64,000 nucleotides of DNA from Cyanobium sp. WAJ14-Wanaka. Lineage in GTDB: Bacteria; Cyanobacteriota; Cyanobacteriia; PCC-6307; Cyanobiaceae. The stretch spans positions 124,001-188,000 of the forward strand of contig NZ_JAGQAZ010000002.1 of NCBI RefSeq assembly GCF_024345375.1. Direction: 5' to 3'. Of this stretch, positions 1,114 through 2,589 are shown piece after piece; the stretch's first letter is position 1, and each line of letters opens with the position of its first letter. The position numbers and the translations under genes were made by a program. The notes beneath the pieces are model-generated. The model was not told the DNA's origin, ran no database searches, and worked only from the letters and a program-made list of their open reading frames with translations.

Positions 1114-1878
1114 CTACCCCTCACCGGCCCATTCTCCCGCGGCACGGGCCAAACGCCAGCGACCATCGGCATCTGGCTGCACCAACCAATCACGCCACTG
1201 CCAGGCGGCAGTTTTGGCCTCGAGCTGCTTGAGGGGCAACTCCACCAGCTGGGCCAGCTCCACCAGGCTGAGGGCATAGCCACCACTCGCCAGTCGATCT
1301 GCCAATTCCAAACGACCCAGCAATTGCTGCAGGGCCGCAGGAGCTGGATCTGCGGGCAACACTGCCTGGGTTGCGGGCACGGCAACAGGCTGGGCCTGAC
1401 CCTTGGAAAAGGCCACCGCAATGGCATCGCAGCGGTCGTTGTCGGGATCGCCGCTATGGCCCTTCACATAACCGAGCTGCACCCCATCCAGGCGTGCCCC
1501 ATCCAGTTGCTCCCAGAGGTCGCGGTTGAGCACGGGGCCACCCGAGGCCGTGCGCCAACCCTTGCGTTTCCAGCCCTGGATCCATTTGCTGAAACCATCG
1601 ATCACATATTTGCTATCGGTGCGGATCTCCAAGCCCGGTTGGTAAGGCAGCTGCTTGAGGGCCTCGAGCAGGGCCAGGGCAGCCGTCAGCTCCATGCGGT
1701 TGTTGGTGGTGGCGGCATCGGCCCCACCGAATTCCTGCACCGAACCATCCTCAAAGCGCAGCAACGCCCCCCAGCCACCGGGGCCAGGATTCCCGCTGCA
1801 GGCCCCATCACAGGCGGCCGCCACAACCCTTACTTGCTTTTCAGCCACTTGCTTTACGGCCACCTGCTCTCTCGCCAC
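1114..1878 (-). CDS. rnhA: Ribonuclease HI with C-terminal extension
   Basis: Cleaves the RNA strand of RNA-DNA hybrids (R-loops, primer removal). The catalytic domain spans about residues 15-160 and shows the complete metal site: D24 in [15 protein letters not shown]63 in [10 protein letters not shown]88 in TDSKYV and D151 in DNDRCDAIA, with the helper H141 in VKGHSGD. At 254 residues it is about 100 longer than typical RNase HI. The extra C-terminal part (about 165-254) is a separate helical region with conserved-looking Leu/Trp positions and no family I recognise. It sits directly upstream of pyrD in the same direction. Confidence 0.93.
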
Positions 1879-1984
1879 TTGCCTATTGCCATTCAGCCGA
1901 ACCTACCGAGTCACTGGCACAGTGCCAGTTGCCAGAGAGTCCTGCTTGGCTGGCATGCCCCGGGAATATGAAGGTATGGTTCAT

Positions 1985-2086
1985 TTGTGTGAGGAGTGAG
2001 GAACAACCTTTCCGGGGTCGAAACGAGGACAGACTCCCAGAAAGCGTTCCTAACTCAGAGCCCTGCCTTTGGCGGGGCTTTTTTAT
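1985..2086 (+). ncRNA. Candidate structured small RNA with own terminator
   Basis: No gene explains this stretch, yet the forward strand folds into one long nested hairpin: 1999-2004 pairs with 2046-2051 (6 bp), 2008-2012 with 2040-2044 (5 bp) and 2014-2019 with 2032-2037 (6 bp including one G-U). The apical loop is 2020-2031. A Rho-independent terminator follows at 2059-2084. The G-U pairs in both stems work only in the forward transcript, which favours that strand. The 5' end is a guess: a weak -10-like TATGGT lies at 1974-1979. Unpaired 1987-1997 reads GTGTGAGGAGT, the exact complement of the Yfr1 core motif. It matches no RNA family I know. Confidence 0.5.
2059..2084 (+). terminator. Rho-independent terminator, forward strand
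   Basis: AGCCCTGCC, loop TTT, GGCGGGGCT, followed by TTTTTT. The 9-bp stem has one G-U pair. No forward protein gene lies upstream, so it probably ends the candidate small RNA at 1985-2086. Confidence 0.75.
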
Positions 2087-2115: not shown

Positions 2116-2141
2116 AAAAAGCCGGCCCCATGGGACCGGCT
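2116..2141 (-). terminator. Terminator of the rplJL operon
   Basis: On the reverse strand AGCCGG and CCGGCT enclose a GC-rich loop and are followed by TTTTTG. It lies about 65 bp past the rplL stop and should end the ribosomal-protein transcript before rnhA. Confidence 0.75.
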
Positions 2142-2205: not shown

Positions 2206-2589
2206 TCACTTGATGGAAACCTTGCCGCCCACTTCTTCCACGGCCTTCTTGATGGTTTCGGCTTCGGCTTTGGCGATGCCTTCCTTGATGGCCTTGGGAG
2301 CAGCTTCCACAAGGGCCTTGGCTTCGCCCAAACCGAGGCCAGTGACCTCGCGGACGGCCTTCAGCACCTTGATCTTGGCCGAATCTTCGAAGCCATCAAG
2401 GATGACGTCGAATTCGGTCTGCTCTTCAGCGGCTTCAGCGGCAGCGGCGGGAGCCGCGGCCATCATTACGCCAGCAGAAGCTGCAGCGGACACACCGAAG
2501 GCCTCTTCAATCTGCTTGACAAGCTCGGAAGCTTCCAGCAGCGAGAGAGTCTTCAGCGACTCGAGAATTTTGTCGGTAGTAGCAGACAT
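2206..2589 (-). CDS. rplL: Ribosomal protein L7/L12
   Basis: Stalk protein of the 50S subunit that recruits translation GTPases as dimers bound to L10. The 127 residues have the expected layout: an N-terminal dimerisation helix ([20 protein letters not shown]), an Ala-rich flexible hinge at about 34-57, and the globular C-terminal domain with [25 protein letters not shown] and [11 protein letters not shown]. Normal length, last gene of the ribosomal block, 50 bp after rplJ and followed by a terminator at 2116-2141. Confidence 0.98.

Follow-up and report, generated by a model that had tools for sequence, protein, structure and literature searches.

Does the gap between rnhA and rplL hold a gene for a small RNA, and if so, is this RNA a new one? 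A sequence-only reading of the window (the whole stretch of 64,000 nucleotides that was analysed) had proposed a new forward small RNA with a nested hairpin and a terminator of its own. With a probability of roughly 90%, we read it as the single-copy yfr2 (Cyano-1) of a freshwater-type picocyanobacterium (Cyanobium/Synechococcus lineage), which has its own promoter and would sequester Yfr1. The gap RNA is an ordinary member of the Yfr2 family in an unusually stable gene position (Table 1).

Table 1. Features in and around the gap between rnhA and rplL (positions in the window).
Feature	Position	Strand	Basis or remark
rnhA (RNase H)	1114-1878	-	gene on one side of the gap
Palindrome ACTGGCACAGTGCCAGT, candidate regulator site	1913..1929		holds CAGT of the conserved CAGTTG half-site
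-10 box TATGGT	1975..1980	+	TANNNT at the same spacing in 80/80
yfr2 (Cyano-1, RF01701) small RNA gene	1987..2084	+	Rfam match; -10 box gives the predicted start, terminator the predicted end
5' end GUGUGAGGAGUG	1987..1998	+	perfect 12-nt complement of Yfr1 CACUCCUCACAC
5' arm of short 4-bp closing helix	1994..1997	+	partner 2053-2056; shares bases with the Yfr1-binding motif; MFE fold
Nested 6+5+6 bp hairpin	1999..2051	+	MFE fold; two-sided changes in both its helices
Conserved 12-nt loop GAAACGAGGACA	2020..2031	+	nearly invariant in 80 sequences; bulge at U2035
Intrinsic terminator	2057..2084	+	11-pair stem 2057-2081, then T-run
Facing terminator, rplL transcript	2120..2141	-	consensus scan
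rplL (ribosomal protein L7/L12)	2206-2589	-	gene on the other side of the gap

The Rfam model RF01701 matched positions 1983–2055 over its full length (model positions 1–69 of 69) with 55.1 bits, the cut-off being 41. We take Cyano-1 (RF01701) to be the Yfr2 family, and this equation agrees with the unpaired 5' end, the 12-nt loop and the bulge of the RNA. The predicted transcript of ≈98 nt runs on the + strand from near 1987, at GUGUGAGG, to ≈2084. One match to RF01701 and one to Yfr1 (RF01116), the latter located away from the gap, were found in the whole genome (2.14 Mb, 99.9% complete). A Yfr1 would carry CACUCCUCACAC between two hairpins on its transcribed strand; at yfr2 the motif lies on the opposite strand. 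Other Rfam families (asX2, rnk leader, GcvB and others) matched only weakly, far below their own cut-offs, and these matches were discarded. No related phage DNA was found.

The minimum free energy (MFE) fold reproduced the nested 6+5+6 bp hairpin that the sequence-only reading had placed at 1999–2051, with stems at 1999–2004/2046–2051, 2008–2012/2040–2044 and 2014–2019/2032–2038. On the forward strand the full unit folds with −45.8 kcal/mol compared to −31.3 ± 3.3 for shuffled sequences (z −4.5), and none of the 200 shuffles was as good. The proposed forward terminator also held by itself (z −4.2 against shuffles), with another extent: its stem has 11 pairs at 2057–2081 and not 9 bp from 2059. 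The unit itself starts earlier than proposed, near 1987 and thus ≈12 nt ahead of the hairpin, so that it includes the 5' end complementary to Yfr1. This most telling part was absent from the sequence-only reading. Its strand argument from G-U pairs is weak, since the minus strand folds equally well (z −4.8); the assignment to the + strand comes from the T-run, the -10 box and the Rfam match.

In published descriptions the 5' end of Yfr2 RNAs is unpaired, and their long stem carries a loop of 12 nt, with a bulge at −4 relative to it (PMC2662882). The same 12-nt loop (2020–2031) on a long stem is seen here, with U2035 bulged at −4, and the promoter and intrinsic terminator typical of Yfr2 are both present as sequence signals. 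The GGAAACA loop repeat, a feature of Yfr2-5 in Prochlorococcus MED4, is not found in the loop GAAACGAGGACA. As the oligos for Synechocystis Yfr2b/c also imply a CGAAAC loop (PMC2662882), the repeat is not general to Yfr2 and its absence does not exclude membership.

The longest exact complement between Yfr1 and Yfr2 is 12 nt, a length reached or exceeded in 1 of 2000 shuffles. Cofolding the two RNAs gained 14.9 kcal/mol over the separate folds, and the entire 12-bp duplex formed. In free Yfr2 the first 7 nt of the motif are unpaired with a probability of at least 0.98, and the RNA thus begins with the open stretch, matching the conserved motif of Yfr1, that characterizes Yfr2. The last four bases of the motif are predicted to be paired in the free RNA, a point against the titration reading. 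According to our reading of the frames, the Yfr1 gene of this genome is flanked by genes for a thioredoxin and a guaB-like product, the position occupied by most yfr1 genes (PMC6778093). The 2.14-Mb genome has just two occurrences of the motif ACTCCTCACA, one in Yfr1 and one on the strand opposite to yfr2, so that no further exact copy is able to serve as a Yfr10-like RNA. About four occurrences are expected by chance in a genome this large; possibly the motif is avoided elsewhere. Complementarity is found in this genome and 23 others: in all 23 relatives tested the Yfr1 core is unchanged and the relative's own Yfr2 is able to pair over at least 10 bases. Three loci (L030, L033, and L074) have GUGUGAGGGGUG rather than GUGUGAGGAGUG opposite an unchanged Yfr1, an A to G change that turns A-U into G-U.

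The sequence-only reading had named conservation and compensatory changes in the rnhA–rplL gaps of relatives as the check on its RNA, and here it was borne out. Using RnhA, 80 loci were found, 79 of which hold both rplL and rnhA, while the contig of L016 ends before the gap. The Yfr2 signature lies between the two genes in all 79 relatives with an intact gap, and 65 of the 80 loci reach the RF01701 cut-off. In the alignment of 80 sequences 87.1% of the pair cells hold. Changes on both sides affect 15 pairs (9.7 ± 1.5 in shuffles, 2–7 in slid structures) and the covariation score is 0.148 (0.051–0.075 in slid structures), figures that somewhat favour the structure, as it was taken from one alignment row and the sequences are related. 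The terminator keeps 95.6% of its pair cells, with 5 pairs changed on both sides. The outer pairs of the closing helix (1994–1997/2053–2056) are kept in 58–95% of the sequences; no two-sided change was seen in this outer helix in the 80-sequence alignment, its 5' side being the nearly fixed Yfr1 motif.

By homology to the Yfr2 of MED4, the RNA most likely titrates Yfr1 through base pairing. Transcribed in the forward direction from a promoter of its own and ending at ≈2084, Yfr2 would start pairing through its unpaired 5' end with the single-stranded CACUCCUCACAC of Yfr1. This would open the 1994–1997/2053–2056 helix, give the 12-bp Yfr1–Yfr2 duplex and withdraw Yfr1 from its mRNA targets, with the conserved loop probably acting as a second contact site. 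The MED4 Yfr2 binds Yfr1, and its co-expression restored a Yfr1-repressed reporter; small amounts of it blocked the binding of Yfr1 to ppa mRNA, and Yfr1 in turn shielded Yfr2 from RNase E (PMC6778093). Going by the MED4 Yfr2, we would also expect transcription, a duplex in the cell, relief of Yfr1 repression and RNase E control here.

Across the 80 sequences the loop region varies as little as the 5' end does, as would also fit a Yfr2 that acts mainly on mRNAs and antisense RNAs via the loop (or on a protein via GGA motifs), Yfr1 pairing then mainly switching Yfr2 off. With MED4 Yfr2, 302 mRNAs and numerous antisense RNAs were enriched (PMC6778093), and as it pulls down hundreds of other RNAs, titration of Yfr1 may not be its main task; GGA motifs have been noted in Yfr2 as well (PMC2662882). 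However, the Yfr1–Yfr2 complementarity is perfect and unique in this genome, and for the protein variant an RsmA homologue was not found in cyanobacteria (PMC2662882). We consider a loop-centred role unlikely, although it is the strongest competitor of Yfr1 titration.

A forward transcript from further upstream could also account for the structure, which would then be merely its 3' end or terminator. In at least 56 of the 79 relatives a forward gene does end 62–123 nt upstream of yfr2 (DUF3747 in the one scanned), so the remark that no forward protein gene ends here is true of this genome and fails for these relatives. Yet the DUF3747 gene is missing from the gap studied here (1879–1986), the genome having only a 39%-identical copy elsewhere (G000:C4:38828-39367), and a few relatives also lack the gene in the gap and keep yfr2. 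This persistence speaks against yfr2 being the mere 3' end of that gene. The same is true of the fixed -10 box directly upstream in 80/80 sequences, and in other species Yfr2 RNAs have mapped starts of their own (PMC2662882, PMC1242208), which makes the 3'-end explanation very improbable.

The TATGGT box at 1975–1980 predicts a start near 1987, and in all 80 sequences TANNNT precedes GTGAGG by 12–14 nt, compared to 0.14% of background stretches. Further upstream, 60–65 nt before GTGAGG, 52 of the 80 carry CAGTTG (background 4.6%). The palindrome ACTGGCACAGTGCCAGT, which lies ≈45 bp before the -10 box of yfr2, is perfect and has its sole exact match in the genome here; near relatives keep the half-site only, their best match to the full palindrome having at least three mismatches. 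It was seen with at most one mismatch in 6 of 30 other Yfr2 copies, a count for which the pattern was picked after seeing some of the copies and the background was drawn from these loci too. Some marine yfr2 copies likewise have a similar palindrome in front of them. A GntR-family regulator is reported to bind the CGRE1 motif ahead of yfr2 genes in marine strains (PMC6778093). A GntR-domain protein is encoded in this genome, and we would guess that the palindrome is a CGRE1 element.

That the RNA founds a new family has practically no chance and is refuted by its Yfr2/Cyano-1 membership, since the full-model RF01701 match, the Yfr2-type 12-nt loop with bulge and the Yfr1 complementarity left nothing in its support after the family search. 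What remains of the proposal is a forward small RNA gene with its own terminator, which is strongly supported by Rfam, the fixed -10 box, the paired changes and the persistence of yfr2 in the absence of the upstream gene. The main result is accordingly that a false 'new RNA' is removed: the Yfr2/Cyano-1 family has been known since 2005 and was tested experimentally in other cyanobacteria (PMC1242208, PMC2662882, PMC6778093). Our additions to it are minor and concern synteny, copy number, loop type and the genome-unique palindrome upstream.

The yfr2 genes have been said to lie at unconserved loci (PMC6778093). This does not hold for the rplL-linked yfr2, which is syntenic across most of the family: besides the 79 loci, in a sample of 26 genomes from across the family 16 have Yfr2 just downstream of rplL, and the 10 lacking it there are all low in G+C (0.33–0.42). 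This stable position can serve as a marker for true yfr2 orthologues. All ten genomes sampled of the window's genus, and many others of the family, have one Yfr2, while several other genera of the family have 2–8 copies. Around the loop, the sequence of rplL-linked copies is GUCGAAACRAGGMMAGACUC or nearly so, and that of most scattered marine copies is GUGGAAACAAGGAAACAC. The two loop types of the family (L085–L114, L147–L172) are thus CGAAAC..GGAMAGAC, mostly rplL-linked, and GGAAACAAGGAAACAC in scattered marine copies. This suggests an ancestral, vertically inherited yfr2 copy and later scattered ones. More tentatively, and at somewhat less than even odds, the rplL-linked yfr2 may be an ancestral subclass, passed on vertically and marked by a distinct loop type (CGAAACRAGGACAGAC), the only copy in many freshwater picocyanobacteria and one-to-one with Yfr1, whereas the scattered marine GGAAACA copies would be a later expansion, possibly with other targets.

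Members of the Yfr2 family are abundant RNAs of ≈80–95 nt which bind Yfr1. The RNA has in common with Yfr2-5 of Prochlorococcus MED4 and Yfr2a-c of Synechocystis 6803 the unpaired Yfr1-complementary 5' motif, the long stem, the 12-nt loop, the bulge, the terminator and a length, here predicted, of ≈80–98 nt. Unlike them, it is encoded by a single copy at a syntenic locus beside rplL. Its loop is CGAAACGAGGACAGAC, whereas the MED4 copies carry the GGAAACA repeat, and all 12 nt of its 5' motif match Yfr1, while the pairing in MED4 was described as requiring a bulge and one mismatch (PMC2518516); the match predicted from the two sequences is the better one here. In MED4 there are four copies of Yfr2 in addition to Yfr10, and genetic tools are lacking; genomes with one Yfr1, one perfectly complementary Yfr2 and no other exact copy of the motif would offer a simpler test ground for the Yfr1–Yfr2 antagonism. 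The control of one small RNA by another has a precedent in GlmY/GlmZ of Escherichia coli (PMC2518516), a likeness of action and not of membership, as sequence, structure and partner are unrelated to those of Yfr2.
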